Of a stretch of DNA of 64,000 bases, positions 39,605-57,115 are shown piece after piece. Location: assembly GCF_001299475.1 (NCBI RefSeq), contig NZ_CYUJ01000003.1:314409-378408 (forward strand), written 5' to 3'. The notes beneath the pieces are model-generated. The model saw nothing but the letters and a program-made list of their open reading frames with translations. It searched no databases and was not told where the DNA came from. Source of the DNA: Neofamilia massiliensis. GTDB lineage: Bacteria > Bacillota > Clostridia > Tissierellales > Peptoniphilaceae. The translations under genes and the position numbers were made by a program. Position 1 is the stretch's first letter, and each line of letters starts with the position of its first letter.

Positions 39605-39610
39605 AAACAC

Positions 39611-39646
39611 AAAGACCTAGGAAAAGAAAAATCCTAGGTCTTTTTT
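39611..39646 (+). terminator. Intrinsic terminator after the ABC exporter
   Basis: Perfect 12-bp stem AAAGACCTAGGA / TCCTAGGTCTTT then TTT. It may also end the convergent transcript from the other side. Confidence 0.9.
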
Positions 39647-39700
39647 GGTTAAATATTATTTTTGTATTTACTTCCAATCCAAGTATTAAATTTACAAATT

Positions 39701-41464
39701 TTATTTATTATCATACCAAGCAGCTTGGGCCTGCCACATGGAATAATATTCTCCTCTCTTTTTCATTAACTCCTCATGACTTCCCTCTTCAACAATTTGT
39801 CCAGCTTCCATAAGGATAATTCTATCGGCAAATTTTGTCGATGCCAACCTGTGGGTTACAATTACAGCACAGCGGTCTGCAACTATCTCTTTAAACTGCT
39901 GATACAACTTTGATTCTTCAATTGGATCAATGGCAGAAGTTGGCTCGTCTAATATAATAAATTCACTTGGTCGAAATAGACCTCTTGCAAGAGCCAGCCT
40001 CTGCCACTGGCCACCTGAAAGGTCAACTCCAGCAAATTCAGGAGCCAAAATAGTTTCAAATGGAAGGCCCTGATAATTAAAGCTGGCTTCTTCTAAAGAA
40101 GATTTAATTCTTTCCACATTGTCCTTAGCATTTAAATTACTAATCGTCACATTTTCTTTTAAGCTTAGCTTATATCTTTGAAAGTTTTGAAATACAGCTG
40201 AAATGCTTGCATAATTTTTTCCAAGTCCTTGTCCTTGGACTTTTTGTCCACCAATTATTAGCTGCCCGGAATCAGGTCCATACAGGCCAGTCAATAACTT
40301 TACCAGTGTTGACTTGCCACTGCCATTTGTTCCAACAAGAGCTATGGTCTCTCCTGCTTTAATTTCTAGAGAAAGATTTTTTATAGCATCCTTACTTTGG
40401 CCTGGATAGGAAAAAGAAATTCCCCTTGCTTTAATTCCCTGGCTAAAGTCTGCTGGCAAATTTTCTTCTAAGTCTTCTTCTAGGTCCATTAGCTGATAAA
40501 AGTTTGCAACTTGGCCGACAAGTTCACTTCCTTGGCTAAGTTGAGAAGATACAAGCTCATCTATAATTCCAAATACATCTCCTAACATTAGAAAGACAGC
40601 TGCAAACATACCGACACTAATAAGGCCTGCCATAAGTTGGCTAAATAAAATATAAATAGAAAGGCCGAGACCTAAAAAGGTAAAGCCATTAAGGCCCATT
40701 TGAATATAGGCTATTTTTTTCTCTGTCTGCCACCTTTTTTCTGTCATTATATGGAGTGATTCCAAAAAGAGCTTGAAAAAATACTTGTAAGCTCCAAGCA
40801 TTCTCGTTTCTTTATAAGACCTCACGTGGACAATACTATTTTTATAGGCCTGACACCTTCTTCGCTCTGGTGCAAGCCCTTCTTCTAAGTCCACAAAGTA
40901 TTTGGCCTTAATTATCTGTCCTAACACAGCTGGAACAAAGGCCAATAAAAGAATGGTCCCTAAAAGTGGAGATGTGAAAAATAAGTAACTTCCTACTAAA
41001 AGTAAATATATAAAATAATAACTGACCATTTGTAGACAAAGTGATGCAAAGTGACCTAGGCTTTCGTATTCTAAACACTCTTTGGTTTTTTCAATTTGGT
41101 CTAAAAAGTTTACATCTTCAAAATATATTGCTGGCAGGCGACCAAGCTTTTTTTGAAAATCAACCATGAATTTTCCCATATTGCTATAGGATACCTTGCT
41201 CAGCAAGTATTGACTTAGGCCACTAAGTAACTCTTGGAAGATAATTACAAAAATTAATAGAAAAAGACTGGTCGCTATAGTCGAAAATGATTTTGCCTTA
41301 GATACATTGTCGAAAAGTCTTTTACTTATAAGAATTTCAGCAGCACAAACTAAGGCACGGAAAACAGCTATCAACTGTTCTGTTACAGCCCAGCCCCTGC
41401 CCTTGGAAAAATATTCTCGGCTATTTCGAAGAATTATCGAAAAATAAGATTTATTCTTTATCAT
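39701..41464 (-). CDS. ABC exporter half-transporter, peptide/lantibiotic-export type (partner B)
   Basis: A 587-residue half-transporter with six helices in the first about 320 residues. Walker A is GTNGSGKST, signature DLSGGQWQRLALAR, Walker B FIILDEPTSAID and switch VTHRLAS. The Q-W-Q in the signature is characteristic of NisT/SpaB-like peptide exporters. I start at ATG 41464, which overlaps the partner gene stop as ATGA and has AGGTGG upstream; a GTG at 41476 is less good. Probably forms a heterodimer with the preceding gene product. Confidence 0.9.
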   Translation of the reverse strand: MIKNKSYFSIILRNSREYFSKGRGWAVTEQLIAVFRALVCAAEILISKRLFDNVSKAKSFSTIATSLFLLIFVIIFQELLSGLSQYLLSKVSYSNMGKFMVDFQKKLGRLPAIYFEDVNFLDQIEKTKECLEYESLGHFASLCLQMVSYYFIYLLLVGSYLFFTSPLLGTILLLAFVPAVLGQIIKAKYFVDLEEGLAPERRRCQAYKNSIVHVRSYKETRMLGAYKYFFKLFLESLHIMTEKRWQTEKKIAYIQMGLNGFTFLGLGLSIYILFSQLMAGLISVGMFAAVFLMLGDVFGIIDELVSSQLSQGSELVGQVANFYQLMDLEEDLEENLPADFSQGIKARGISFSYPGQSKDAIKNLSLEIKAGETIALVGTNGSGKSTLVKLLTGLYGPDSGQLIIGGQKVQGQGLGKNYASISAVFQNFQRYKLSLKENVTISNLNAKDNVERIKSSLEEASFNYQGLPFETILAPEFAGVDLSGGQWQRLALARGLFRPSEFIILDEPTSAIDPIEESKLYQQFKEIVADRCAVIVTHRLASTKFADRIILMEAGQIVEEGSHEELMKKRGEYYSMWQAQAAWYDNK

Positions 41465-43290
41465 ATAGAGTACCACCTACTTTGTTCTCGGTACATTTCA
41501 GCATAAAGTCCTCTTTCACTTATTAATTGCTGGTGACTACCTCTTTGAACAATTTTCCCTCCATCTAAAACTAGGATTTGGTCTGCTAATTTTGTTGATC
41601 CAAACCTATGGCTAATAAAAATCGCCGTTTTACCTGCCATTAAATCTTGAAATTGATGGTAAAGTTGGTTTTCAGAAATAGGATCTAAGGCCGCAGTTGG
41701 CTCGTCTAATATTTTAATAGGCCCCTGGCTTAAAATAGACCGTGCAAGAGCAAGTTTTTGCCACTGGCCACCAGATAAGTCAATACCATGAGGATGAATT
41801 TTTCCAAGTTTACTTTCTATTCCCCTTGGTTCTTGGTCCACCATTTCTTTTAGACCAACTTTTTCCAAGGCAAGATTAAAATCATTTTCTGTCAATCCAT
41901 AGGCTGTATTACCTAAAAGTAAATTGTCTTTTATTGAGATTTGGTAGTGGGAAAAGTCTTGATAAATAACTGAAAAGAGACTTTTTAATTGAGACTGATG
42001 CAGGGAGCGAATATCTCTTCCATCAATTAAAATTTCTCCTTCATAGTCATCATAAAGTCCTGTCAATAATTTTGTAATTGTAGTTTTTCCTGCGCCATTG
42101 GATCCAACAAAGGCATAGTGTTTGCCTTTTTCAAGAACAAAAGACAGGTCATCTAAGATTAGACGGTCGCTGTTAGGATAGGAAAAAGAAACATTATTAA
42201 AGACAATTTTTTCAAAATTCATAGGATCTTTTTCTGGCAAGTCTGTTGCCCCAGTTACTGAGTCCATTTCCATTAACTTGGTCAAACCTTCCATGTATTC
42301 TTTTGCTTCTGCAATGTTTTTAATTGCATCTTGAAACTGAGAGCCTAAACCTTTGCCCATGCCAATAAGGGCTGCCACAAGGCCAGTAAACATTCCTGGA
42401 CTAAGATTTCCTAAAAGCAAAGGCTCAATTAAAGTAAGGGCTGTTAGCATACTGATAACTAAAAGTCCAATGCTTGTTGCCTTAGTTGCAAGGCGGGTTT
42501 TAAAAAGAACGCCAAGTTGTATATTGCTTGCCTTTAAAAAATTTTCATAATAGCGGTCTGTCATTTTATCTGCATAGGCAAAGAGGGTTCTCTCAAGGGC
42601 CGCTTCTCGGCTACATAACATTTCATCTGAAAAATAACTATAGCGTCTTTCGTATTTTCTGGCATCTACTTTGGCTCCATAATTTTTCTTGCCTGCCCAA
42701 AGGGCAATATAAACAAGTGGAAGAGAGCAAAAGAAAATTATAAGTGCACTCCACCACATTTGTGTAATTAAAAGAAATACTAAAGAACCAAGGGCAAAAA
42801 CACTGCGAATAATTGCAATATAAGCTTCTAAGCCATCTAAAAATGTTTCTTCCATTTCGTCTGCTGTTATCTCAAGCATTTCTTGACAAGCTGAATCTTC
42901 CATGTAGGAATATTTTAATTTAGCTTGGACTTCAATAATTAAAGGAAGAAGCTGGTCTTCTAACAATAATTTTATCCTCGCACCAACAAGCATATACAAA
43001 CTTCCTGTCATGCTCATAAAGGCTGTGAGAAAAATTAAAAAACAAAGGGGCCTGTAAATTTCAGAATATATCCTAGCCCCATGAAAAATATCAAGGGCTC
43101 TATCAACAAAACCTGCTGTTGCAAGAGCCATAAGTGACGTAGAAGCAAGACCATCAATAATTGTTAAGAACATTAAAAAACCTACTTGCATAGGCGCAAT
43201 TTTATAGGTCAAAAAAATAATATCAAGGGCTCTATATTTTCTTTTTTCTAATTTAAAATTTTTCTTTTTATTATTAATGGTCGTCTTCAT
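41461..43290 (-). CDS. ABC exporter half-transporter, peptide/lantibiotic-export type (partner A)
   Basis: A 609-residue half-transporter: basic N-terminus (MKTTINNKKKNFKLEKRKYR), six helices, then Walker A GSNGAGKTT, signature DLSGGQWQKLALAR, Walker B IKILDEPTAALD and switch ISHRFGS. It is first of a two-gene operon and is driven by the promoter at 43317-43345. The first 13 codons and promoter recur as a relic at 50334-50442, showing that this locus was once duplicated. Confidence 0.9.
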   Translation of the reverse strand: MKTTINNKKKNFKLEKRKYRALDIIFLTYKIAPMQVGFLMFLTIIDGLASTSLMALATAGFVDRALDIFHGARIYSEIYRPLCFLIFLTAFMSMTGSLYMLVGARIKLLLEDQLLPLIIEVQAKLKYSYMEDSACQEMLEITADEMEETFLDGLEAYIAIIRSVFALGSLVFLLITQMWWSALIIFFCSLPLVYIALWAGKKNYGAKVDARKYERRYSYFSDEMLCSREAALERTLFAYADKMTDRYYENFLKASNIQLGVLFKTRLATKATSIGLLVISMLTALTLIEPLLLGNLSPGMFTGLVAALIGMGKGLGSQFQDAIKNIAEAKEYMEGLTKLMEMDSVTGATDLPEKDPMNFEKIVFNNVSFSYPNSDRLILDDLSFVLEKGKHYAFVGSNGAGKTTITKLLTGLYDDYEGEILIDGRDIRSLHQSQLKSLFSVIYQDFSHYQISIKDNLLLGNTAYGLTENDFNLALEKVGLKEMVDQEPRGIESKLGKIHPHGIDLSGGQWQKLALARSILSQGPIKILDEPTAALDPISENQLYHQFQDLMAGKTAIFISHRFGSTKLADQILVLDGGKIVQRGSHQQLISERGLYAEMYREQSRWYSI

Positions 43291-43354
43291 CTAGTCACCT
43301 ACTTTACTTAGTTAAAAGTATAAAGTATTATTTTATATATAACAAGGGACATTA
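43283..43354. repeat. 72-bp promoter repeat, copy 1
   Basis: This stretch, covering the promoter, ribosome site and first codons of the exporter gene, is repeated in the same orientation at 50371-50442 with only two mismatches. Confidence 0.9.
43317..43345 (-). promoter_or_regulatory. Promoter of the exporter pair
   Basis: Minus strand TTGTTA, 17 bases, TATACT, about 25 bases before the ATG at 43290. Identical boxes occur in repeat copy 2. Confidence 0.65.
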
Positions 43355-43440
43355 GCGTTCTAAGTCAAGAAATATTTAATTAACTTATCTCGATAAAGTT
43401 TAATAAAAACAAATCTACTAAAGAATCTCAACTTGAAAAA

Positions 43441-43461
43441 TGCTAGGCTTTTACACCTAGC
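43441..43461 (-). terminator. Terminator after the ABC-2 cluster
   Basis: Minus-strand stem TGCTAGG / CCTAGCA with an 7-base loop followed by TTTTT, 16 bases beyond the small membrane protein gene. Confidence 0.85.
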
Positions 43462-43476
43462 ACTAATAAATAAAAA

Positions 43477-43842
43477 TCAATTTTTTAAACTTGTATATTC
43501 TTTTATGCTAACAATAGTTACTATTACAAATAGTAATGGAAAAATTAATATTCTTTCGTCTATACCCATAATCATTTGCATAGCAATCAGGCTAATTGCA
43601 TTGACAGTAGAAAATAATAACAAAAATAGTTTTAAGGACATATTTTTAAAATCATTTTTTACTACAACTAAATAAAAAATTACAACAACTATTATTTTAC
43701 TTAGATCGTAAAAGATATTGGCGACCATATTCATTTGGCTTACATTCTTACTAAGACAATAATAATTCCAAATTGCTGGTATTATTATGGCAACTAACAA
43801 TAAGGGATTAAATAGGCTTCTTTCTTTTTTTGAATTATTCAT
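43477..43842 (-). CDS. Small four-helix membrane protein
   Basis: A 121-residue protein with four hydrophobic segments (about 11-28, 42-60, 69-91, 96-114) and a basic N-terminus. I do not recognise it. It is the last gene of the ABC-2 cluster, 26 bases after the permease gene, and small proteins at this position often give immunity to peptides, which is inference only. ATG 43842 is preferred over GTG 43848 because AAGGAG lies 9 bases before it. Confidence 0.75.
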   Translation of the reverse strand: MNNSKKERSLFNPLLLVAIIIPAIWNYYCLSKNVSQMNMVANIFYDLSKIIVVVIFYLVVVKNDFKNMSLKLFLLLFSTVNAISLIAMQMIMGIDERILIFPLLFVIVTIVSIKEYTSLKN

Positions 43843-43868
43843 ATACACACTCTCCTTTTAATTTTTCC

Positions 43869-45113
43869 CTAGTCACTTTCATAATTTTTATACAAGAAAT
43901 AACTTGCTATATTAAGACCAAGGATAAATATTCCTAAGATTAAAAGGCTGCCTTTAAAGGCTATGCCTGTGTCGCCTTGTAGTAGCTCTTCTATTTTAAA
44001 GTAAGAAAATGGATTGTAGGCTCCTTGGAAAAGCATTAGACTTAGGGCTATTATTGATCCAACTAGAGAGCCAAAGTCACTCTTTAAAAGGATGGAAATA
44101 AAATTTATCACTGCTATTAAAAACATTAAATAGACTAGCATTAGACTTATATAATAGGTCTTATAGGAGCTTGTTCCCATAGCTACTAGGTATTTATAAA
44201 TTTCTTTAGACGAATTTAAAGAAAATAGTCCTTCTAGGGCCAGTGAGTTTACTGCATGGCCTAAGTCTGTCCCACTTCCATTAATTATTCCCGCTATTAA
44301 AACTGGCAAGAAAAAAACTAAAAGGGTAACTATCAGGGTCTTTAGAAGACTTATCAAAGTTCTAGCTAAAAATATTTTCTTTTTGTCAAAGGGCTGGCTG
44401 TTTAAAGTCTTTATATGACCTTCTTCAAATTCCTTGGACCAAGTATTGTAATTTAGTAAGACAACTAGGGCAATAAGTAAATAAGGAACCTTCTCTTTCA
44501 TTTGAAAGTCAAGCATTGATAGACCTGTTGGACTTATGTTTGCTCCTTCCCCAAGGTCTGCCCTTGCCTTTACTGTTACAAATCTCTTATAAAAATCTTC
44601 TATATTGTATTTATATAAAAGGGCTGTGTTTTTTGGGACAATTTCTTTTTCAATTAAATCCTTGTAGGTCATTTTGTTAATTGTGTTTGCATTTGCTATA
44701 GCAGTTTTAAAATTCTTGTCTAAGTCTGCCTTATCATCTTCTAGCCCATTTTTAAAAGCAGCTTCTATGTTTCCATAATATGGTTCAATATTTAAGACTA
44801 GAAATTTTTCTGTATCTATATTAGCCAGGTCTTTTTGTAGGTCTTCTATTTCTTCTTCAGACCCACCTTCTTCTTTTAATTCTTTTAGTCTTTTAGTCAT
44901 ATCTATAGAAAGTTCATCTAAGTATAAATAAGACTGATAGGCATCCATTCTGTTGGCCTGGGCCTTTAACATTTGGTCTTGGAAGAGTCCTGCCCTAAGG
45001 TCCTTGTAGATTTTAAAATTATAGGTCGTAGCTAAAATTAAAATTACTAGGACTAGAAGAATCATTCTTCTATTTGTATGAGTCCTTAATTCTCCCCTTA
45101 ATAGGTCTTTCAT
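43869..45113 (-). CDS. ABC-2 type permease
   Basis: A 414-residue permease: one N-terminal helix (about 17-35), a long outside region of about 170 residues, then five to six helices (from LIALVVLLNYNTW onward), with the cytoplasmic LNSQPFDKKKIFLARTLIS motif typical of ABC-2 permeases. It overlaps the ATPase gene by 4 bases. Together with the ATPase and the paralogous permeases upstream it likely forms a peptide or lipid exporter. Confidence 0.85.
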   Translation of the reverse strand: MKDLLRGELRTHTNRRMILLVLVILILATTYNFKIYKDLRAGLFQDQMLKAQANRMDAYQSYLYLDELSIDMTKRLKELKEEGGSEEEIEDLQKDLANIDTEKFLVLNIEPYYGNIEAAFKNGLEDDKADLDKNFKTAIANANTINKMTYKDLIEKEIVPKNTALLYKYNIEDFYKRFVTVKARADLGEGANISPTGLSMLDFQMKEKVPYLLIALVVLLNYNTWSKEFEEGHIKTLNSQPFDKKKIFLARTLISLLKTLIVTLLVFFLPVLIAGIINGSGTDLGHAVNSLALEGLFSLNSSKEIYKYLVAMGTSSYKTYYISLMLVYLMFLIAVINFISILLKSDFGSLVGSIIALSLMLFQGAYNPFSYFKIEELLQGDTGIAFKGSLLILGIFILGLNIASYFLYKNYESD

Positions 45114-46021
45114 TGGTTCTTCACCTCAATTATACTTTGATAAAGCTCTTCAAGGCCAAGACTTTCCTTGCTAATGTCTTTGATATAAATTTTTTCTTCA
45201 AATAATTTTTCAAGGAGAGATCCAATTTTACTTGATTCTAAGTTAAAGGATATATAGTTTTCTGTAGCAGGATTTTTGCTGATGGAATATTCTATTTCCC
45301 TTTCTTCTAGAATCTTTATTAGCTTAGAATTATCACTTGTATCTATGTCATAAGTTGACAGTTCTAAAATTCCGCCAGAAATTTTATCGTCATAGACAAC
45401 TTTTCCGTTTTCTATCATTAGAACCCTGTCTGATATTTTTTCCAGTTCTGACAGCTGGTGGGAAGATAATAAAATACTTGAGCCTGAATTTTTTAAATCA
45501 ACTAGAGTTTTTCTTAAATTTAAAACTCCTTCAAAATCTAGGCCGTTCATTGGCTCATCTAAGATTAGAAGTTTTGGCTTGTGCATTATTACTAGAGACA
45601 GCATTAGTCTCATTTTCATTCCCATAGAATATGTTGAAACTGGTTTTTTTAAATATGATCCAAGGTTAGAAAAGTCAATCATCTCTTGGACTCTTGCTTT
45701 TGGAATTTTTCTCCAAGCTGCCATTTGCTTGTAGTGGTCATAGGCTGAAAGGTTTGGATAAAGGGCTGGAGATTCTATACTTACTCCTATTTTTTCTAGG
45801 GCCTTTATTCTATCTTTTTTTATATCAAAGCCACAAATTGAAACACTTCCTGAGTCAAAGGCCATAAGACCTGATAGGCATTTCATTGTTGTAGACTTTC
45901 CAGATCCATTGCGGCCTAAGAAGCCTAGGATTTCTCCTTCATTTATTGTAAAGCTTAAATCTTTTAAAACTTCTTTTTTTCCAAAAGATTTTTGTAAATT
46001 TTCAACTTTTAAAACTTCCAT
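45110..46021 (-). CDS. ABC-2 transporter ATPase
   Basis: A 303-residue ATPase with Walker A GRNGSGKST, signature YSMGMKMRLMLSL (CcmA/BcrA-like divergent signature), Walker B LLILDEPMNGLD and switch SSHQLSE, followed by a C-terminal dimerisation domain. The start is ATG 46021, directly behind AAGGTGGAG; the open frame further upstream is the end of the permease gene in another phase. The type is that of bacitracin/lantibiotic immunity transporters. Confidence 0.92.
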   Translation of the reverse strand: MEVLKVENLQKSFGKKEVLKDLSFTINEGEILGFLGRNGSGKSTTMKCLSGLMAFDSGSVSICGFDIKKDRIKALEKIGVSIESPALYPNLSAYDHYKQMAAWRKIPKARVQEMIDFSNLGSYLKKPVSTYSMGMKMRLMLSLVIMHKPKLLILDEPMNGLDFEGVLNLRKTLVDLKNSGSSILLSSHQLSELEKISDRVLMIENGKVVYDDKISGGILELSTYDIDTSDNSKLIKILEEREIEYSISKNPATENYISFNLESSKIGSLLEKLFEEKIYIKDISKESLGLEELYQSIIEVKNQ

Positions 46022-46290
46022 TTTCTCCACCTTTCTTATTCTAAATCTCTTTTCCTTGCAAGAAATAGAGAAATTCCTAGCATAAGTATTATCCACCCTA
46101 TTAACAAAACAAAGGCATTAAAGTAGGAAATATATTCCCTGCCTAAGGTTAGCTTCCAGCCATTTGGCAAGATAAAGGGATTAAATTTATTTAAGAAAAA
46201 TCTGCTGTTAATTTTCCCACCTAAAAATGTCATGGTCCCAATGGCTCCATTTAAAACAAATCCGAAAATTTTGTTTTTTATAAAGAGAGA
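46017..46290. repeat. Near-identical 3' segment of paralogous permeases, copy 1
   Basis: About 270 bases covering the last 85 or so codons of the permease gene plus the following ribosome site and ATG are nearly identical to 47488-47760. Confidence 0.88.
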
Positions 46291-47409
46291 TATGCTGGTC
46301 GCTGTTATAACTAGTAAAGTTAGCTTTAATAGGTCTATGCTTATAACATAAAATATAAAACTTAAAAATGAAATATTTTTTAAATCTGAATACTCTATAG
46401 TATCTCCTAACAAGCCATTAACAACATTAGTCATTCCAAAAGTGCCAGAATCAATCCATTTATTTTCGAAAGCTGTTTCAAATGACCTCAGTCCCTTATC
46501 TACAACAGTAATGTCAGTAAATGCCTTATATCTTTCTCCTGTTACTAGCACATAAAGATATGAAATAATCTTTGGTAAGTAGACTAAAACTAAAGAAAAA
46601 ATAAAAAATAAAATTAATAGGTATAGATAATTCATATATTTCTTCTTGGGCCTTAAGTATGTATTTTTTATAGTACCCATACTTTTTTGTTGTATTAGGA
46701 GATAGAAAATAACAAGTGGCACAATGCTAATAAAGAAATTTTCCATCCACTCAATAAAGCTTCCAAGTTGACCATAATTTACAAGTCTAATAAAATTATA
46801 GATATTATAATCACTTGTATTTGGAAGAGTAGCTTTCAAAAAATATGAATCTAATTTATTTTCAATAGCAAGAATATTATAGTTTAAAAGATCTTTTTGA
46901 TTTATAAATTCCTCACTAGGGGAAAGAAAATTAATGGCCTGAAAATTATATGGGAAATTTATATCTTCTAAAAATTTATCTATTTTTCTTGGATAAGCTT
47001 TGTATGGACTTATTTGGTTCTCTCCATAAAGTCCAGAATAATGTTCGTTTCTAATTAGAGAAGCTAAGCATTGACATTGGGCAAATTCTCTATCTGGAAC
47101 CTTCTTATCTTCAGAATATTTTTTTAATATTCTATGAACTTCTCTTGTAGACCAGTCATAAGAATCCTTATAATTATTATAAAGTTTTTTATCAGAACTT
47201 GTGTCTTGAGATTTAGCTCTAAGAAGGTCATTTTCTTTCCACATCGCATCAAATTTCATAAGACCTTCTAAAGATAAGTAATTGGCTTCCTCTCTAGCTA
47301 TAGAAGTGTTCTTTAAATCGCTTGCAAAAATAATGTACAATATAGTTAAAAAAAGTAAAATGAAAATTATTACTTTATTCTTGAGCATGGCTTTTAAATC
47401 TGTTTTCAT
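46036..47409 (-). CDS. ABC-2-like permease, paralogue 1
   Basis: A 457-residue protein starting MKTDLKAMLKNKVIIFILLFL: one N-terminal helix, an outside domain of about 185 residues, then six helices from about 215. The last 90 residues (from ITATSISLF) are almost identical to those of paralogue 2, whereas the outside domains share well under half of their residues. It lies 15 bases before the ATPase gene and is probably one of its membrane partners. Confidence 0.82.
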   Translation of the reverse strand: MKTDLKAMLKNKVIIFILLFLTILYIIFASDLKNTSIAREEANYLSLEGLMKFDAMWKENDLLRAKSQDTSSDKKLYNNYKDSYDWSTREVHRILKKYSEDKKVPDREFAQCQCLASLIRNEHYSGLYGENQISPYKAYPRKIDKFLEDINFPYNFQAINFLSPSEEFINQKDLLNYNILAIENKLDSYFLKATLPNTSDYNIYNFIRLVNYGQLGSFIEWMENFFISIVPLVIFYLLIQQKSMGTIKNTYLRPKKKYMNYLYLLILFFIFSLVLVYLPKIISYLYVLVTGERYKAFTDITVVDKGLRSFETAFENKWIDSGTFGMTNVVNGLLGDTIEYSDLKNISFLSFIFYVISIDLLKLTLLVITATSISLFIKNKIFGFVLNGAIGTMTFLGGKINSRFFLNKFNPFILPNGWKLTLGREYISYFNAFVLLIGWIILMLGISLFLARKRDLE

Positions 47410-47482
47410 ATATATTACCTCTTGGTTTATTAATAAAGCTTAGAAATCCTAGCATTTTTCTATTTTATAATTTAAATACTTT

Positions 47483-47487
47483 CCATT
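47483..47487 (-). other. Relic of an ATPase gene start between the two permease genes
   Basis: After the stop of paralogue 2 the sequence repeats the AAAGGTGGAG ribosome site and an ATG-GAA as found before the real ATPase gene, but the frame stops after four codons. It marks a past duplication of permease plus ATPase whose ATPase copy was lost. Confidence 0.7.
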
Positions 47488-47760
47488 TTTCTCCACCTTT
47501 CTTACTCTAAATCTCTTTTCCTTGCAAGAAATAGAGAAATTCCTAGCATAAGTATAATCCACCCTAATAATAAAACAAAGGCATTAAAGTAGGAAATATA
47601 TTCCCTGCCTAAGGTTAGCTTCCAGCCATTTGGCAAGATAAAGGGATTAAATTTATTTAAGAAAAATCTGCTATTAATTTTCCCGCCTAAAATTGTCATG
47701 GTCCCAATGGCTCCATTTAGAACAAATCCGAAAATTTTGTTTTTCATAAAGAGACTAATA
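47488..47760. repeat. Near-identical 3' segment of paralogous permeases, copy 2
   Basis: Partner of 46017-46290. Similarity falls off abruptly toward the 5' halves of the genes, suggesting local gene conversion. Confidence 0.88.
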
Positions 47761-48872
47761 CTTGTTGCAGTTATTACTAATAAAATAATTTTTAGTAGGT
47801 CTATTGTCAAATAGTAGGACAAAAATTTAAGGAAGCTAATATTTGCTAGGTCATTGTAGGCTAATAGGTCTCCCTTGCTACCAAGCTTCCAATCTGTCAT
47901 TGAAAAGCCTTGTAGTTCATCAGCCCAAAAATTTTCATAACTTGTTGCAAATGTATTTAGACCTTTTTGAAATACTGTAACATGAGCCTTGGTCTTATAG
48001 AGGTCTCCTGTTATTAAGACATAAATATAGGAAATGATTCTAGGCAAATATACAATAAAAATAGCTAGGCATAAAAATATCAGGATGAAATATAGGTAAT
48101 TTTTTATTTTTCTTTCAGGTCTTAAGTATAAATTTTTAATTGTCCCATCTTTTTTATAGAGATTTACTAGATAAAATATTACTAGAGGCAAGATCCCAAG
48201 AGAAAAAGTCTCCATCATATAGATAAGTTTAGAAATTGTTCCATAGTTTATATTTCTAATATAGGTGTAGATGCTATATTCTGTTGACGGATATGGGTCT
48301 TTTTCAAAATAGGCATCTATCATAGATTCAACAGTCTTTATATTATAGGCAACCAGGTCTTTGTATAAGCTACCATTAGATTCTTCGAAATAATTTATGT
48401 CTTCAATATTAAATGTAAAATCAAATTCCTTTAAAAACTTTTCAATTTTTTCTGGATAGGCCTTGTAGGGACTTACAAAGTCAGCTCCATAATTTCCAGA
48501 AAAACGTTCATTATGAACAAGTATTTTCAATATTAATAACTTTTCAACTTCTTGAGGATTGACATCTTGGCCCTTTGAATATTTTTCAAGTAAGGCAGAC
48601 ATCTCAGCCATAATATTTTCGTAATAAGTTAAGTAGTTATTGTAATATTTTTTGTCAGAAGTTGGATCTTGAAGCTTGGCTTCGTATAAATGCTGGCTTT
48701 TATATGTCATCAAAGACTGGTAGGTGTTTTTTAAGCTCAGATAACTAAGTTCATCTTTCCCTATAGAATGGTCTTTTGAAATAAAAGTAAAGCTAAAATA
48801 TATTAGCGTCAAAAAGACAAATATAAATACTATTAGCTTGTTTTTAAATATGGCCTTTATATCTGTTTGCAA
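47502..48872 (-). CDS. ABC-2-like permease, paralogue 2
   Basis: A 456-residue paralogue beginning MQTDIKAIFKNKLIVFIFVFL, same topology as the next gene: one helix, outside domain, six helices. The outside domain keeps the pattern NNYLTYYENIMAEMSALLEKYS and the motif N-E-R-F-S-G-N-Y-G. Divergent outside domains on a conserved base would fit recognition of different peptides, but that is inference. Confidence 0.82.
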   Translation of the reverse strand: MQTDIKAIFKNKLIVFIFVFLTLIYFSFTFISKDHSIGKDELSYLSLKNTYQSLMTYKSQHLYEAKLQDPTSDKKYYNNYLTYYENIMAEMSALLEKYSKGQDVNPQEVEKLLILKILVHNERFSGNYGADFVSPYKAYPEKIEKFLKEFDFTFNIEDINYFEESNGSLYKDLVAYNIKTVESMIDAYFEKDPYPSTEYSIYTYIRNINYGTISKLIYMMETFSLGILPLVIFYLVNLYKKDGTIKNLYLRPERKIKNYLYFILIFLCLAIFIVYLPRIISYIYVLITGDLYKTKAHVTVFQKGLNTFATSYENFWADELQGFSMTDWKLGSKGDLLAYNDLANISFLKFLSYYLTIDLLKIILLVITATSISLFMKNKIFGFVLNGAIGTMTILGGKINSRFFLNKFNPFILPNGWKLTLGREYISYFNAFVLLLGWIILMLGISLFLARKRDLE

Positions 48873-48943
48873 AATATATACTCCTTCTATAATTGATATT
48901 TTAAATCTTTCAATTACTATATAAGCAAATCTGTAAATAAATT

Positions 48944-50125
48944 TTATCGAATTGTTCTTAAAATCTTCTTATAATCATCATCTTCTCGAAGGATTATGTC
49001 AGGCTCAATTATTATATTAAAGAGATTTCCATCTTCATCACATCTTCTACCAGTGAAAAATTGAAAAAGCAAGTTTGAGTTTTTTAGCCTATAGGCGTTT
49101 AGACCGTGGCCTTGAGAAAAACTTCCATTTCCTCTGCTAATTGAGCTCCTACTTATAACTTTTCCAAAACCTGTGTCTTTAGCAAATTGAGCAAACATTA
49201 TAGATGCTGATAGAGACTGGTCATTTAATAATAAATATATCTTTGGATCGTAGTTAATTTCTTTTTCAGAATCTAAATGAAAGTCAAATGTAAAGATATT
49301 TAATTCCTCGCCTTTTTGACTTGGTAAAATATTTTTTTCAAAATGCGAATCGTAAGAATCGTAAATATATTCTGCAATTTTTCCCTTGGCAAGATAGTTG
49401 ATTTTCATATCTATGTCTTGATCAATTAAAAGCTTTACAATATTGTACCATCCATTTAAATCGCCTCCGTAATTATTTCTAAGGTCAATAATTATATTTT
49501 CATAGGGTCTTTCTAAAAGAGCGTCTTGTATTTGCTTTTTATTTTTATCCAAGTCTTCAATTACAAAGGTGTTAAGGTCTAAAATTAATGTTTTATAAGC
49601 CTCTTCTTTAATTATTTCCATTTCAACAATATCACTTGCTGAGTAAGAATTATTAGTTGATATTTTTTCTTCTAGGTCTTTGTAGCGTTTTTTAGTATTT
49701 TCATTTAAAACTGTATCTTTGAGATATTTCTCTGTGTCCTTAGGAATATTCTCAAGTAGGGTTTTTTCAATATTTTCTGCTACAGGCTTATATTGTTGGG
49801 CATAAACCATATTTAGATGACCTTCTTGATGGAGTCCAACTGCTAAAAGGTCGCAAAGCAAAAAATAAAAGTCTTCAAACTTTTCTACATTTTCAATTTG
49901 TCCCCTATAAACTTCTTTCAAAGACTCTACATTTATTCCCATATTTTTCAAAATATCAAAATACAAGTAGTTGTCCTCTAAAACCTGCCACAATTCATCA
50001 TAATCTTCTAGCATCTGTTCTTTAGTAAGCTCATAAGTATAGTCTGTTTTATTTTCGCAACTAGTAAAAATTATTGTCAAAGTAAGCAATGATAAAATTA
50101 TTAGTATTTTCTTTGTTTTGTTCAT
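48944..50125 (-). CDS. S41 family (tail-specific) protease lipoprotein
   Basis: A 393-residue lipoprotein with signal peptide and lipobox IFTSC near residue 23. The S41 core is visible: IIIDLRNNYGGDLNGW about residues 210-225, LLLNDQSLSASIMFAQFAKDTGFGKVI with the likely catalytic Ser, and IIEPDIIL near the C-terminus. No PDZ domain is evident. Nisin-resistance protein (NSR), which cleaves lantibiotics at the membrane, is a related S41 enzyme; the adjoining ABC genes make a similar role plausible here. Confidence 0.82.
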   Translation of the reverse strand: MNKTKKILIILSLLTLTIIFTSCENKTDYTYELTKEQMLEDYDELWQVLEDNYLYFDILKNMGINVESLKEVYRGQIENVEKFEDFYFLLCDLLAVGLHQEGHLNMVYAQQYKPVAENIEKTLLENIPKDTEKYLKDTVLNENTKKRYKDLEEKISTNNSYSASDIVEMEIIKEEAYKTLILDLNTFVIEDLDKNKKQIQDALLERPYENIIIDLRNNYGGDLNGWYNIVKLLIDQDIDMKINYLAKGKIAEYIYDSYDSHFEKNILPSQKGEELNIFTFDFHLDSEKEINYDPKIYLLLNDQSLSASIMFAQFAKDTGFGKVISRSSISRGNGSFSQGHGLNAYRLKNSNLLFQFFTGRRCDEDGNLFNIIIEPDIILREDDDYKKILRTIR

Positions 50126-50251
50126 GTCTCTCCTTTAGAAAATTTGGTATTTATAAAAAATTTACACCATTATAATTTATATCAAACTCTAAATATAGAT
50201 ATTTATCCCCAATTGTGCTAATATAATATTAATATAAAAGTGGAGTTTTTA

Positions 50252-50273
50252 AAAGTGCAAATGTTTGCACTTT
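50252..50273. promoter_or_regulatory. Perfect palindrome, probable operator
   Basis: AAAGTGCAAA-TG-TTTGCACTTT: perfect 10-bp arms with a 2-base centre between the S41 protease gene and the XRE-TPR regulator gene. It is followed at 50283 by an orphan GGAGGG-ATG whose frame stops after three codons. In the 330-base gap 50126-50456 this palindrome, the exporter relic and the repeated promoter are all that I recognise. Confidence 0.6.
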
Positions 50274-50333
50274 ACATTTTGAAGGAGGGATGATATATTA
50301 ATAATTTGGCTAGCATTTATCATTTATCTCTCC

Positions 50334-50378
50334 TTATATTTTATAATTTTTCTTATTATCATTAATATTTGTCTTCAT
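50334..50378 (-). pseudogene. Relic of the 5' end of an exporter gene
   Basis: A complete promoter, ribosome site and ATG are followed by 14 codons reading MKTNINDNKKNYKI and then a stop. The intact exporter gene at 43290 begins MKTTINNKKKNFKL, so this is the decayed start of a second copy. A GGAGAG and a short frame follow immediately. A functional short peptide cannot be excluded. Confidence 0.7.
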
Positions 50379-50442
50379 CTAGTCAGCTACTTTACTTAGT
50401 TAAAAGTATAATGTATTATTTTATATATAACAAGGGACATTA
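50371..50442. repeat. 72-bp promoter repeat, copy 2
   Basis: 70 of 72 bases match 43283-43354. Here the repeat lies between the relic and the divergently read regulator gene, so it includes the regulator's upstream region. Confidence 0.9.
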
Positions 50443-50456
50443 AAGTCCTTTTTGAG

Positions 50457-51362
50457 GTGGTTAATATTTATAATATAAAAAATTTTGCTGACAAACTTAG
50501 GGACTTGCGTTTAGAAAATAATCTTACTCAAGAAGAAGTTGCTGCTTTGGCTTTAATAAGTAAGAAAACTCTTAGCCGAATTGAAAATGGGACAGTTATT
50601 CCTAAAATTGAAACTTTAGAAGTTCTTTCTGATGTCTATAAAACTGACTTAATTAAATTATACTTAGAGTCTAGGTATATAAACTTTGAACTCTTTTCTT
50701 CTATCTTGGCTAATATTGATATTTTAATTGAAAAAAGATTTTTTGATGAATTAATAAGCGAAAAAAATAATTTAGAAAGACTTGGAAGTCATGTAGAAAC
50801 TGGTTTTTTAAAAATAAGAATTGACCAATATATTTTGTTTATTGATTCTATTTTAGCTATGGAAGAAGATGATACTTCCAGAGCAAAACTACTTACTACT
50901 AAGGCCTTAAAACTCACTAAAGAAAACTTTGATGTCAATAATTATAGGGATTTTTCTTTTTCTACTTTAGAGCTAAGATTATTAATGATCTTAGGGAAAG
51001 TCTATTATTTAGAAGATAATTATAAAAGTTATAGAGAAATTCTTTATTTTTGTTTTTCCTCTGTCGATCCTAGGGACAAATTTTTTATTTCTACTTGTAT
51101 TAACCTAGGAAATGTCTATAAGAGAGATGCGAATTATGAAAAGGCCTTGGAAGTTTTTAATCTTGGCCTTGAAGCAGCTTTAAAAAATAATTATTTAGCT
51201 GAGCTAGATCTTTTATTTTTTGCTAAAGGGTCTTGTGAGTATAAATTAGGAATATCTACTTATAAAGATTCATTTTCTAAGGCCTTAGATTTTTGTACTA
51301 TAACTGGCAAAGACCAAACTAAGATATTAATTGCAGAAAAAATCAAAAAATATTTTTCATAG
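50457..51362 (+). CDS. XRE-HTH/TPR regulator (RRNPP/Rgg-like)
   Basis: A 301-residue regulator with an N-terminal helix-turn-helix (about residues 12-66: LRDLRLENNLTQEEVAALALISKKTLSRIENG) and a C-terminal all-helical region with TPR-like repeats (ACINLGNVYKRDANYEKALEVFNLGL type). This is the layout of peptide-sensing RRNPP regulators such as Rgg and PlcR. The only start codon available is GTG 50457, buried in GAGGTGG; ATT at 50466 is better spaced. It reads away from the protease/ABC block and probably controls it. Confidence 0.82.
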   Translation: MVNIYNIKNFADKLRDLRLENNLTQEEVAALALISKKTLSRIENGTVIPKIETLEVLSDVYKTDLIKLYLESRYINFELFSSILANIDILIEKRFFDELISEKNNLERLGSHVETGFLKIRIDQYILFIDSILAMEEDDTSRAKLLTTKALKLTKENFDVNNYRDFSFSTLELRLLMILGKVYYLEDNYKSYREILYFCFSSVDPRDKFFISTCINLGNVYKRDANYEKALEVFNLGLEAALKNNYLAELDLLFFAKGSCEYKLGISTYKDSFSKALDFCTITGKDQTKILIAEKIKKYFS

Positions 51363-51380
51363 AAATTTACATTCATAAAA

Positions 51381-51433
51381 AAATCGACCTAGAGAATTTT
51401 TTCCTCTAGGTCTTTTTTAAGTTCAAATTTATT
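51381..51433. repeat. 53-bp direct repeat containing a terminator, copy A
   Basis: Matches 57116-57168 with one mismatch and in the same orientation. It contains the stem GACCTAGAG / CTCTAGGTC followed by TTTTTT, which ends the regulator transcript. The two copies bracket the 5.7-kb segment with the ABC genes. Confidence 0.92.
51386..51417 (+). terminator. Terminator of the XRE-TPR regulator gene
   Basis: Perfect 9-bp stem GACCTAGAG / CTCTAGGTC, 9-base loop, then TTTTTT. Confidence 0.9.
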
Positions 51434-51574
51434 GGTTCTATAATATCTGTTGGGGGATAAGAAATTATCCAAATCAGGTAAGGTCGAGGCTTAGCCTCCT
51501 CTCAGATCTTTAAAATAACACCCTTGTATATTTTTATTTTAAAGCTTGTAAAGGTTTCGGTCAAGCAAGAAGAG

Positions 51575-51687
51575 TTTTATCTTAGATTAATATCGAATAT
51601 GTATCTATTGATATTAGGTGGAATTTGTCTTATGATTGCCTTAATAGAAATCTAAGATAAAAATAATATTTAGATATAAATCTAAGA
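51575..51687. promoter_or_regulatory. Inverted and direct repeats upstream of the ArsR-like gene
   Basis: A perfect 14-bp inverted repeat (TTTTATCTTAGATT at 51575-51588, AATCTAAGATAAAA at 51649-51662) plus a further AAATCTAAGA at 51678-51687, just before the ribosome site of the gene at 51699. The arms could be binding sites for that regulator or form a leader hairpin. The rest of the 51434-51698 gap holds IS-like sequence but no convincing gene. Confidence 0.5.
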
Positions 51688-51698
51688 AAGGACATGAA

Positions 51699-52898
51699 AT
51701 GAATCCTAAATTTAATAATTTTAACCTAGTAAAAAAACCAATTCTTGTTAATGAAGCAGGAGTAATGATTTATCTTTACACAGATTACTTGGCTGCAAAA
51801 AACAAAAACTTTTTCTCATTTGAGGAGTCCTACCCAGGTTTTAACTACTCCCAGGATATGAATTTGACCTACCTAGATACGGCCTTTTATAACAACAAGG
51901 TCTATACAGATTTTGTTAGAAGTATTAAAAAAGGATCCCTTCCCCATCTAGAGGAATTTTTCCATGACAAAAACGAAGATATTTTAAATCTTTTTTATCT
52001 ATTTTCGGAAAATGACGGGAATTACTTGCCTTTTATGGCGGGAATTTTCCAAAATATTAATGTCATTGATATAAAAGATTTCACCTACGATATCTTTGAA
52101 CTTGTATTCGACCTTTCTTTCTTAAAATTTGTCGGTGTAGACATAAATGATTCAGAACTAAAATCAGCAAATATAAAAGAATGGACGAAAAAAGCCCTTA
52201 AATCAGATTTTCTTAGCCTTATACCTACTCTTCCCTACGAAGATAAGCTTTCAATGGCACTTTTGAGATCTTTTTCCAACAAAAAATCAATATACGATAG
52301 GCTTTATCCACTACTAGAAAAAATTTGTGAGATTTTAGAAAGTAATTTTACAAAAATTCAAGATGAATTCATGGAACATTTTAAAAAAATAAAAAAAGAT
52401 GATTACAAAAAGGTCTATGATATTATAAATCAAGTTGGCCTTAATGATTTTCTTAGGAAAAGAGAACAACCACTTAATATCTATGGACTAATCCTTGCAC
52501 CAAACATGACCATGATTCAGTTTATATCAGAAGATTACGATTACGCCTTTATGAAGTTTGGAATTTATTCAAATAAAGAATTTATCGAAAAGGAAAATAA
52601 GCTAAAACACCTAAACCAATACCTAAAAATTCTAGGAGACACAACTAGGATTGACATCTTAGATCTCTTAAAGGAAAGAAATTACTATGCCAAAGAGCTT
52701 TCTGACAAGCTTTTTATAAGACCAGCGACCCTGTCTTACCACATAAACCAACTTCAAGTTTGCGGCTTTATTGGAGCCTATATCGAGGGCAGGAAGACCT
52801 ATTATTATTTGAGAAAACCTGGTTTTGACAAAGTTATAGAAGAACTCACTGAATTTTCTAAGGATATAAGGGAGGAAGAACATGGAAAAGAATCTTAA
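51699..52898 (+). CDS. Transcriptional regulator with C-terminal ArsR-type winged helix
   Basis: A 399-residue protein. The first about 310 residues are a helical domain I do not recognise. Residues about 318-385 form an ArsR-like winged helix (LKILGDTTRIDILDLLKERNYYAKELSDKLF, then ATLSYHINQLQVCGFI and wing GRKTYYYL). The reversed order, sensor first and DNA-binding last, is unusual for ArsR proteins. It overlaps the following ABC gene by 17 bases, so it most likely regulates that exporter. Confidence 0.82.
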   Translation: MNPKFNNFNLVKKPILVNEAGVMIYLYTDYLAAKNKNFFSFEESYPGFNYSQDMNLTYLDTAFYNNKVYTDFVRSIKKGSLPHLEEFFHDKNEDILNLFYLFSENDGNYLPFMAGIFQNINVIDIKDFTYDIFELVFDLSFLKFVGVDINDSELKSANIKEWTKKALKSDFLSLIPTLPYEDKLSMALLRSFSNKKSIYDRLYPLLEKICEILESNFTKIQDEFMEHFKKIKKDDYKKVYDIINQVGLNDFLRKREQPLNIYGLILAPNMTMIQFISEDYDYAFMKFGIYSNKEFIEKENKLKHLNQYLKILGDTTRIDILDLLKERNYYAKELSDKLFIRPATLSYHINQLQVCGFIGAYIEGRKTYYYLRKPGFDKVIEELTEFSKDIREEEHGKES

Positions 52899-54750
52899 AA
52901 ACTTAAAAGAAAACCTAGCCCAAAATTTAAATGACGAAGAGGTTGTAAAATCATATCTCAGAGCGAATAAACTTTCGAATTTTGACCTTCTAAAAATGGC
53001 CTATGAGCCCTTTAAGAACAATCTTAAAATTAAATTATCCCTCATAATTTATCCTTTCACTGCTGGTCTCATACCAATTATAGAGGCCTTTATCATGTAT
53101 TATTTAGTAGGTCTAATAGAAAAAAACACTGAACTAAAGACAATGATTTTTGTAATTTTAGCCTACGCCCTAATAGTTTTCGTCTGCTCAATAATCTCAA
53201 ATCAGATAGAGCGCAGAACTTACGCAACATATATGGGTACAAGGCTTGAATACTTTATAAAAGCAAGTGGTCCTATCATGGAAATGGACTACGGTCTTGG
53301 TGAAAATTCTCTCTTCATGGCAGAATTTTCCCGAGGTTTTGAACCTTTTTCTAACAACGTCGAGGGTCTTGAAGGAATTTATCACGATATGTATAAGATT
53401 TTGGCAAATCTTATGTCTTTTGTGATAATATCAGTGATTATGGCAAAACTATCTCCCCTAATTTTTATCCTTGCCATAATTTCAATCCTGATTCAGCTGG
53501 CGATTAAATCTTATACAAATAAATACAGACATTCCCACATGGGAGAATTAAGAAAAGTAAAAAGAAAAACCGACACATATTACAAGGAAGCATCCGATTT
53601 TCGTTTTGCTAAAGATATCAGGGTTTTCTCTTTCAAAGACAAATTTATAGAGGGTTTTAAACCCCTTGTGGCTGATGTAGTTAAGATTTCAAGGACCTTT
53701 ATCAAACCTGAAATGTATTTATCCCCTGTTCTTGCAGTCCTCCTTGTAGGAGTAGAGGCTATCGCTTATTACTTCCTAACAGGAAAAATATTATCAGACC
53801 AAATCACACTAAAAAACCTAACTCTAATCATCACATCAGTAGCAATTTATTCACAAGTTATCTTAAGTCTTGTGATGAATATTGCCAAAACCAGGTCAAA
53901 CCTCCTCTATGTATCAGATGGTTTTGATATGCTAAGGGCAGACCTCAAATCAGACGCAGGAGATGATAAAATTACAGGACCAATGTCAATTGAATTTAGG
54001 AATGTGAGCTTTTCCTATCCCCTATCTGATAAAAATGTTTTGGGAAATCTATCATTTACAATTCGTGAAAAAGAGAAAGTCGCAATTGTTGGTGTAAATG
54101 GAGCGGGCAAATCTACTATAGTTTCTCTTATCCTTGGCCTTTATAAGCCAACAGCAGGTGACATTTTTATAAATGGGATAAATGCTAATGACCTTGACCT
54201 AAAGGAAAGGTACGCCGCCTTTGCAACAGTTTTACAAAATGTAGAGCCCCTTGCAGTATCCATTGCAGAAAATGTGGCAGCAACTGATGAAAACATTGAT
54301 AGGGAAAGAGTAATTGACTCACTAAAAAAAGCAGGGCTTGCCTATAAGCTTGACCAATTACCAAAGGGAATCGACACCCAAATGACCCGAAATATCCACG
54401 ATGACGGAACACTTTTCTCCGGTGGAGAAAACCAGAAACTTGCAATCGCAAGAGCTCTTTACAAGAAAGATGCAAAAGCTTTAATAATGGATGAGCCAAC
54501 AGCCGCCCTCGATGCCCTAGCAGAAGAGAAAATCTATAGGAACCTTGATGAAATTAGTAAGGACAAAACCTTAATTTTTATCTCCCACAGATTAGCATCA
54601 ACTAGATTTTGTGATAAAATTATGCTTCTTGATGGCGGTAAGGTTACCGAATACGGGACTCACGATGAGCTTTTGAAAGAAAATGGTCTCTATAAGGAAA
54701 TGTACGAATCCCAAAGAAAATACTACTTGGAGGAAAATCATGAAAAATAA
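52882..54750 (+). CDS. ABC exporter half-transporter, first of pair
   Basis: A 622-residue half-transporter with six helices (residues about 50-330). Walker A is GVNGAGKST, signature LFSGGENQKLAIAR (E in place of Q), Walker B ALIMDEPTAALD and switch ISHRLAS. It is close in type to peptide/antibiotic exporters. It overlaps its partner by 11 bases and presumably forms a heterodimer with it. Part of the inserted segment 51434-57115. Confidence 0.9.
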   Translation: MEKNLKNLKENLAQNLNDEEVVKSYLRANKLSNFDLLKMAYEPFKNNLKIKLSLIIYPFTAGLIPIIEAFIMYYLVGLIEKNTELKTMIFVILAYALIVFVCSIISNQIERRTYATYMGTRLEYFIKASGPIMEMDYGLGENSLFMAEFSRGFEPFSNNVEGLEGIYHDMYKILANLMSFVIISVIMAKLSPLIFILAIISILIQLAIKSYTNKYRHSHMGELRKVKRKTDTYYKEASDFRFAKDIRVFSFKDKFIEGFKPLVADVVKISRTFIKPEMYLSPVLAVLLVGVEAIAYYFLTGKILSDQITLKNLTLIITSVAIYSQVILSLVMNIAKTRSNLLYVSDGFDMLRADLKSDAGDDKITGPMSIEFRNVSFSYPLSDKNVLGNLSFTIREKEKVAIVGVNGAGKSTIVSLILGLYKPTAGDIFINGINANDLDLKERYAAFATVLQNVEPLAVSIAENVAATDENIDRERVIDSLKKAGLAYKLDQLPKGIDTQMTRNIHDDGTLFSGGENQKLAIARALYKKDAKALIMDEPTAALDALAEEKIYRNLDEISKDKTLIFISHRLASTRFCDKIMLLDGGKVTEYGTHDELLKENGLYKEMYESQRKYYLEENHEK

Positions 54751-56506: not shown

Positions 56507-56510
56507 AAAA

Positions 56511-56529
56511 GGGCTGTTGCAAAATAGCC
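56511..56529. other. Insertion-sequence-end-like sequence
   Basis: GGGCTGTTGCAAAATAGCC resembles the terminal inverted repeats of IS1182/IS6-type insertion sequences. No transposase gene is attached. It lies right after the last ABC gene and just before the intron 3' end, at the right border of the inserted segment. Confidence 0.4.
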
Positions 56530-56534
56530 AAAAA

Positions 56535-57114
56535 ATCGAATAGGGGCTAAGAACTAGCCCCTTTCACACCACCCGTACGTGCCGTTCGGCATACGGCGGT
56601 TCAATATTTCTTGTATTATATTATTTATTTCTGATGCATCTATTTAACTTTATTCTTTTTGTATCCGAACCTTGAGAAATAAATACGTCATTTCTTGTAT
56701 TCCATCAAGTCATAGTGCACCCTTTTCCAATATTACAATAAATATTGTTCCTCCCTTCGCTCCATTTCCATTACAGAAACTTCTTTGCTACTATGGATTC
56801 TGCTGACTTCTCACTATTAGTTGTTACTTCTAAATCGCTAGTGAGACCTCACGGGATAAGTCACCAATCTTTCCTTGTCTACCTGCCTAATTTACTTACA
56901 TGGGTTACGGTTGTCTTTTGGACTTCACGACTTTTAGCCCGCTTATCCACCACGCAAGCCTTAGTATTAGGTTTCTGTTCGTCAGGCAACAATTTTGCTA
57001 TCCCTTCTTCTCGCCTGCATCTCACGATACAAACCTTGGGAGTCGCTATGAGGTTCGCTGGCAACTGCGCCCTACGTGGTCTTTCACCACAGATTGATGA
57101 CATACCTGTCATAC
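56535..57114 (-). mobile_element. Group IIC intron, ORF-less, in the purH terminator
   Basis: Read on the minus strand, the 580 bases follow the group IIC plan of the Oceanobacillus intron. The 5' end is GTATGACAGG; DII/DIII contain GAAGTCAGCAGAATCCATAG and GGAACAA. Domain V (56602-56567) has GAACCGCC, a GAAC loop and GTGGTG. Domain VI is a stem with a bulged A at 56541, seven bases from the 3' end GAT. Upstream exon GATTTA can pair with TAAATT of the intron (EBS1). There is no reverse transcriptase gene. The intron lies right after the purH terminator stem, as IIC introns do. Domain V may carry one extra G in its lower strand. Confidence 0.85.
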
Positions 57115-57115
57115 T

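Follow-up and report, generated by a model that had tools for sequence, protein, structure and literature searches.

A candidate peptide immunity or resistance cassette with ABC-2 permease halves, a surface S41 protease and an RRNPP-like regulator in Neofamilia massiliensis

Gene content of the locus

The window analysed here is a stretch of 64,000 nucleotides of the Neofamilia massiliensis contig NZ_CYUJ01000003.1 (positions 314,409 to 378,408), and its own numbering is used for all coordinates unless another locus is named. On its minus strand lies a leftward row of six genes encoding an S41 protease, two paralogous permease halves of the ABC-2 type (ABC, ATP-binding cassette; P1b and P1a), an ATPase, a further permease half (P2) and a small four-helix protein. 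An XRE-TPR regulator (regulator A) diverges from the row on the right, and two ABC exporter halves adjoin it on the left. The initial annotation had proposed this group of genes as a candidate peptide-resistance or peptide-processing locus, and every gene that it named is present where it was placed. Loci compared with the window are given L-numbers, and genomes compared are given G-numbers.

The S41 protease (48944-50125, minus strand) matches PF03572 (2.6e-19) and is a predicted lipoprotein, with a lipobox-like IIFTSC recognised by eye. It is followed on the same strand by P1b (47502-48872), P1a (46036-47409), the ATPase (open reading frame (ORF) 45110-46096, with a likelier start at 46021, assigned from the ORF list, NCBIfam and identities), P2 (43869-45113) and a 123-aa protein with four hydrophobic segments (43477-43848), which was taken from the ORF list and has no match in Pfam, NCBIfam or PADLOC. 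A terminator-like hairpin 3' of the row (43439-43464, minus strand, -14.3 kcal/mol, z -3.98) was not among the matches of a pattern scan. The exporter halves, identified from the ORF list, NCBIfam and their LSGGQWQ signatures, occupy 41461-43290 (half 2, the first gene of the exporter row) and 39701-41476 (half 1), both on the minus strand. Regulator A (50457-51362, plus strand) is intact, with an uncertain start at GTG 50457 or ATT 50466.

All three permeases share one layout: an N-terminal hydrophobic segment, a long polar stretch and then the remaining hydrophobic segments, the polar domain of P2 following its first membrane segment. P1a and P1b, which we treat as putative specificity-type halves to the common half P2, have no Pfam or NCBIfam family above cut-off. 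They are 56% identical, but the identity is unevenly spread: of the aligned codons, the first 350 show 50-62% DNA identity, the following 50 reach 79% and the final 58 reach 96-97%, a pattern that looks like a sign of recent duplication, or of gene conversion sparing the outer part. The best NCBIfam match of the ATPase is the lantibiotic protection ATPase TIGR03740, at 202.9 bits against a cut-off of 309.75. Structure predictions were too poor for use (mean predicted local distance difference test scores of 47.8 for P1 and 39.8 for S41).

The permease-ATPase module recurs beside Cys-rich precursors

The P1-ATPase-P2 module is found in four copies in the genome of N. massiliensis (the window, L038, L039 and L040) and once each in two other genera (L044, which starts at a contig end, and L062), with the three kinds of gene adjacent in all six. 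The six module ATPases are 49-64% identical to one another and at most 45% identical to six others compared, the focal ATPase sharing 51-55% with those of the five other modules. Neighbourhoods vary in composition, with P1, P2, ATPase and a regulator at L038, P1, P2 and ATPase at L040, and five P1 genes, ATPase and P2 at L039.

At L039 (5696-19799 of that locus, on contig C2 of the same genome), five tandem units of precursor plus P1 are combined with one shared ATPase, P2, an exporter and a maturase. Each of the five P1 genes is preceded by a Cys-rich ORF of 65-72 aa that starts with MKYIVNP and ends with SPTSFNF (SPSSFNF in one). The units lie behind Agr genes and a maturase of the radical S-adenosylmethionine (SAM)/SPASM type (TIGR04334, 288 bits against a cut-off of 600), and the exporter comes after P2. 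L062 brings together a single such precursor, a P1 recognised as homologous by hhalign (E 1.2e-8), and a maturase, ATPase, P2 and exporter. L040 contains a 53-aa ORF with four Cys (CPGYNFCPGYEYCPC; 8611-8772, minus strand) that has a ribosome site and lies between P1 and P2; it is a candidate precursor by eye, without a Pfam match and with no maturase seen in the 18 kb around it. A precursor or candidate is therefore present in three of the six modules, and none was seen at the focal locus or at L038. The P1/P2 pump need not have the role of exporter, since L039 and L062 each encode an ABC exporter apart from it, and these separate exporters, together with the one-to-one pairing of precursor and P1, favour immunity over export. 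On the strength of this arrangement, P1 is most likely the peptide-specific half of an ABC-2 immunity transporter. The recurrence of the module beside Cys-rich precursors and radical-SAM maturases supports the peptide-directed side of the initial annotation, as does the grouping of the focal S41 with three others of which two belong to modified-peptide loci (see below).

At the focal locus itself, neither a precursor nor a maturase was found. The first scan for Cys-rich ORFs required five Cys, a threshold that misses a four-Cys ORF of the L040 type; a rescan of 39000-57200 at three Cys returned a single ORF, antisense within an exporter gene. The sole TIGR04334 match of the genome is the one in L039. 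That no precursor is seen in the window leads to the reading of the cassette as precursor-free resistance, as expected for immunity without production.

The two-row P1 profile gave nine matches in the genome of N. massiliensis and matched 3 of 130 genomes of the family. A search of the class, in which the best four candidates per genome were considered, found P1 in at least 1 of 391 genomes and overlooked the divergent P1 of G055, a genome in its sample. At E 1e-5 the P2 profile matched 15 of the 130 family genomes, three of them strongly (E <1e-100; N. massiliensis, G055 and G071), and 8 of 291 class genomes, two strongly (N. massiliensis and G055). Ten of 21 weaker P2 matches in the family fall in open frames of 801-859 codons. 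Distant P2-like permeases are adjoined in 7 of 18 loci (L150, L151, L152, L153, L156, L158 and L167, from five genomes) by an ORF of 97-116 aa. A signal sequence is visible by eye in most of these ORFs, and none matches Pfam or NCBIfam above cut-off where scanned; the small proteins could leave by Sec. No match on plasmids was obtained for one L039 P1, for three S41s or, under the strict limit of E 1e-60, for the L039 ATPase, and viral contigs gave no P1 relative.

G001, of the same genus, carries broken remains of P1, ATPase and XRE-TPR genes at L041 (9196-11010) and L042 (7849-10820), which share neighbours with L039 and L038, respectively; such remains indicate that modules come and go. At L150 (6496-14200, in G059) four permease copies follow one another at intervals of about 2,378 bp; their profile scores are the same, each has a TAA within it, and they represent either a recent amplification or an assembly artefact.

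The S41 protease and its relatives

A close relative of the focal S41 protease (E 1e-20) was found only in its own genome among the 130 of the family, the other 129 having none, and a four-row S41 profile found relatives in 22 of 391 class genomes. Among 18 neighbourhoods of such genes, the S41 of L105 is accompanied by an XRE-TPR gene in divergent orientation and, at a distance of about 2.7 kb, by an ABC transporter; an L105 permease (12985-14232) that resembled a P2 analogue gave no match in a profile comparison. L115 (7612-14757, in G421 of the same class) has an nsr-like set, with an ABC ATPase, an FtsX-type permease and two-component genes 1.4 kb downstream of the S41. In the remaining neighbourhoods no peptide set was seen, and several have unrelated transporter genes nearby. 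With most of these neighbourhoods lacking a peptide or pump set beside the S41, S41 proteases were not accepted as general markers of peptide loci. Peptide contexts are found at L060, a row of maturase, Cys-rich precursor, S41 and exporter, and at L003 of Paenibacillus profundus, where an S41 lies near a C39-type exporter and a LANC_like/DUF4135 synthetase (a LanM locus). The S41 of L153 has as neighbours an 836-aa P2-like permease, an ATPase and a small secreted protein; L153 and L115 add S41-plus-pump contexts.

The S41 tree was built from 21 sequences, without six partial matches (L088-L093) and without L106 and L110, which are near-duplicates. The focal S41, L003, L060 and L105 fall on one side of a branch with 99/99 support, and none of 500 shuffles was as clustered; the grouping is limited by the long branch of the focal sequence (3.33), and L105 was labelled as a peptide context for its regulator and pump only. 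Two of the three S41s that group with the focal protein are thus in loci of ribosomally synthesised and post-translationally modified peptides (RiPPs). The nearest known kin of the focal S41 are in part RiPP-locus proteins, and peptide context extends beyond that group.

His103 and Ser306 are kept in all 21 sequences of the alignment. They correspond by motif alignment to the His and Ser whose roles in the nisin-resistance protein NSR are described in PMC4698656, where the Glu239Ala variant of NSR is also given as retaining 22% activity. The proposal that the focal S41 belongs to the NSR family holds for the S41 family and for the His/Ser pair. It does not extend to the signature TASSAEM, in place of which the focal protein has SLSASIM, or to the partner genes, which are not those of nsr. 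The match to the NSR structure 4y68 is weak (E 0.029 with a two-row profile, and not listed at 0.1 with the four-row profile), so that "NSR-like" applies only in part.

Regulators, duplicated promoter region and assembly of the locus

Regulator A has the helix-turn-helix (HTH) plus TPR architecture of an RRNPP-like protein, matching HTH_3 at 4.8e-14 and TPR_2 at 4.8e-4, the latter below its cut-off, and its RNPP_C match scores 22.3 bits against a cut-off of 26.5. In its XRE-type HTH, its TPR and its divergence from peptide-related genes it resembles the regulators of Rgg/SHP and other RRNPP systems. It may differ in its RNPP_C match, which stays below cut-off, and in that no convincing ORF for a cognate signal peptide was found near the gene; in addition, two sister regulators appear to be ATT-started. 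The 24-aa ORF 50249-50323 was rejected as a signal peptide candidate, being antisense to the conserved palindrome and regulator stub described below. As regards the sister regulators, none of the codons ATG, GTG and TTG precedes the HTH in the XRE-TPR genes of L038 (12305, plus strand) and L042 (9924, plus strand); their likeliest start is an ATT after a strong ribosome site, overlapping a mini-ORF of three codons, ATG ATA TAT TAA. Candidate ATT starts in the window are at 50297 (in the stub) and 50466 (plus strand).

The S41/ABC row is framed by two copies of a 116-nt direct repeat that are 89% identical. Copy 1 (43246-43361) comprises the exporter start codon and promoter region, and copy 2 (50334-50449) the same promoter region and, of the exporter start, a vestige of 14 codons. 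From 100 shuffles of the window, the 67-nt core of the repeat is expected 0.00 times; a query of 89 nt taken from the repeat is found at two places in the whole genome. Upstream of the exporters is a promoter-like TTGTTA-17-TATACT (43317-43345, minus strand, by consensus matches) with a dyad TACTTTTAACTAAGTA at 43305-43320, and a second such site (50405-50433, minus strand, by consensus matches), with its dyad at 50393-50408, is upstream of S41. Promoter-like sites also arise by chance in AT-rich DNA of this kind (9 against 5.0 in shuffles, and 15 against 9.4), and the promoter argument therefore rests on conservation in both copies of the repeat. As copy 2 repeats the promoter-like site and dyad of copy 1, the promoter region of the exporter row is also that of the S41 row, and its orientation is unchanged.

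Between the S41 row and copy 2 lie an operator-like palindrome AAAGTGCAAATGTTTGCACTTT (50252-50273) and, directly after it, the 5' stub of a truncated second XRE-TPR regulator (50274-50316, plus strand), consisting of a ribosome site and about eight codons. The palindrome recurs with one mismatch at the sister locus L038 and with three in G001 (L042), in both cases 5' of an XRE-TPR regulator, and GGAGRGATGATATATTAATAATTT of the stub is common to L038 and L042. At L038 the regulator linked to the palindrome is divergent from P1-P2-ATPase. The duplicated promoter, the palindrome and the truncated regulator go beyond the content of the initial annotation. From these remains we infer that the cassette came from a locus resembling L038, bringing a regulator of its own, and entered the site between the exporter row and regulator A; the regulator that it brought was lost and the promoter region was duplicated.

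The common promoter region can also be read in terms of maturation and secretion: the QWQ exporters, the P1-P2 pump or both would secrete a peptide encoded elsewhere, S41 would trim it outside the cell, and the peptide would feed back on the XRE-TPR regulator. In keeping with this, the S41 of L060, which belongs to the focal group, sits between a precursor and an exporter, and Rgg/SHP systems are reported to connect RRNPP-type regulators with radical-SAM RiPPs (RaS-RiPPs; PMC13361665 and PMC8092268). We nevertheless consider it unlikely, while giving it real weight: the window holds no precursor or convincing signal peptide, the MKYxVNP leader pattern is restricted to L039 within the genome, and the P1-P2 pump stands alongside a separate exporter in both L039 and L062.

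The stub also raises the question of decay, in which case the locus would be a remnant of little effect, its regulator broken and its protease weakened. The truncation of the second regulator would fit this, as would the loss of the S41 Glu/Asp, the long branch of the focal S41 in the tree (3.33) and the broken modules of G001. Yet internal stops are absent from regulator A, the two exporters and the six row genes, all of which are open frames, promoter-like and terminator-like sites are present and S41 retains its His and Ser, so this explanation seems very improbable.

Comparison with known systems

LanFEG transporters consist of one ATPase and two different permease halves and are encoded in or near peptide gene clusters (in part after PMC8003753). 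The focal row resembles LanFEG and CprABC in its unlike permease halves with one ATPase and in the proximity of that ATPase to TIGR03740. It departs from LanFEG in several ways: the ATPase scores below the TIGR03740 cut-off, P2 reaches 14.5 bits against a cut-off of 145.2 for the MutE/EpiE model TIGR03732, and P1a and P1b have no match. The focal permeases are 414-457 aa long, and the first two hydrophobic segments found in them lie about 185 (P1) to 227 (P2) residues apart; there are several P1 per P2; and the sister loci hold Cys-rich radical-SAM precursors, not lanthipeptides.

The nsr operon (NSR, NsrFP and NsrRK) is similar in having a surface S41 with conserved His and Ser beside an ABC pump and a regulator. 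In contrast to it, the focal locus lacks TASSAEM, its ABC-2 module is not of the BceAB type and it has an XRE-TPR regulator instead of a two-component system. Among ten locus proteins scanned, none had a Pfam match to a BceAB/FtsX-type permease or a two-component system. The focal locus is thus like nsr and LanFEG in its logic and differs from each in features that define it.

These likenesses bear on the alternative of a broad resistance to foreign antimicrobial peptides, such as lantibiotics, bacitracin or host peptides, untied to the peptide family of the strain itself. Pointing that way are the LanM-type surroundings of the S41 relative in P. profundus, the nearness of the ATPase to TIGR03740, the ABC, FtsX and two-component genes 1.4 kb from the L115 S41, and the combination of S41 with an ABC pump in nsr-type operons (PMC8003753 and PMC4698656). 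We regard it as improbable, given that the focal permeases match no LanE/LanG or FtsX model above cut-off, that no two-component gene is among the proteins scanned, and that the link between the sister modules and Cys-rich precursors suggests cognate peptides.

The sister loci are also comparable to Clo7bot-type radical SAM/SPASM systems (TIGR04333/TIGR04334), having a related maturase (288 bits) and short Cys-rich precursors. The difference is that the maturase and precursors of the sister loci score below the curated cut-offs (600 and 31 bits), and the focal locus has neither gene. Among the genomes of the class that were matched (n = 9), one is over cut-off (L059) and is without a P1 match, and the pairing of precursor and permease occurs in two (L039 and L062). 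Within the literature covered, which is mostly outside subscription journals, we found no mention of Clo7bot, TIGR04333 or TIGR04334 and no account of tandem precursor/permease immunity. Anti-phage defence was considered and dropped, PADLOC having given ATPase and HTH matches only (eight proteins scanned).

A proposed role in peptide immunity

Taken together, the gene order and the sister loci lead us to favour, with moderate confidence, the view that the 7-kb cassette is an inducible, precursor-free immunity or resistance unit against Cys-rich and probably radical-SAM-modified peptides. P1a or P1b, P2 and two ATPase subunits would together make up an ABC-2 pump with LanFEG-like logic that takes peptide out of the membrane, the divergent outer domain of P1 providing specificity and its common C-terminal part fitting P2. 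The surface S41 lipoprotein may cut or trap the peptide. The XRE-TPR regulator, acting at the duplicated promoter, the palindromic operator or both, would turn on the pump row and the two exporters.

Several observations weigh against an immunity unit of this kind. The direction of transport is not readable from sequence, and L040, with a candidate peptide and P1-P2-ATPase and no exporter in 18 kb, fits export too, just as the S41 directly after the precursor at L060 fits maturation. Divergence of precursor and P1 in step is unsupported (r 0.33, a value equalled or exceeded in 21 of 120 permutations). At the third position after the Ser, Glu or Asp is found in 18 of the 21 S41s, Ile in the focal protein alone, and Thr and Gln in the other two. 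The S41s of L153 and L115 fall in the other group of the tree, which weakens the case for peptide-context S41s as one clade: the peptide label requires two changes in place of one when L153 is included (2 of 500 shuffles as low), three when both are (6 of 500) and two when L105 is left out (55 of 500). The co-occurrence of the genes in other genomes, proposed as a check in the initial annotation, gave a divided answer. The full set was not seen elsewhere (a close S41 relative, at E 1e-20, in 1 and P1 in 3 of the 130 family genomes), while the ABC module, the regulator with its operator and the S41s each recur in peptide or pump contexts.

The immunity reading can be extended, tentatively and with some doubt, to a combinatorial transporter in which one ATPase and one P2 serve many exchangeable P1s, each beside its own Cys-rich peptide, as at L039, or without it, as in the window. 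The repertoire would grow by added P1 genes and divergence of their outer domains, gene conversion keeping the P2-facing part alike. The focal cassette would then be a pure shield with a surface protease, plugged by promoter duplication into a foreign peptide-sensing regulator, and would resist peptides made by siblings. If this is true, the one-to-one pairing of peptide and transporter half would make the specificity of RiPP transporters readable from gene order, and would provide a direct system for studying how immunity to many peptides evolves in bacteria around a single pump core. The results also point to families of P1 permeases, precursors and secreted peptides outside the family libraries scanned.

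Other features of the window

A 197-aa ORF (37207-37800), with no Pfam or NCBIfam match at the limits used, lies between an aldo-keto reductase/ferredoxin fusion and an MsbA-like exporter. On the other side of the locus, an ArsR-type regulator and two ABC exporters are flanked by a 53-nt terminator-bearing direct repeat (51381-51433 and 57116-57168, 98% identical), and this block contains group II intron fragments (56752-57031, minus strand).

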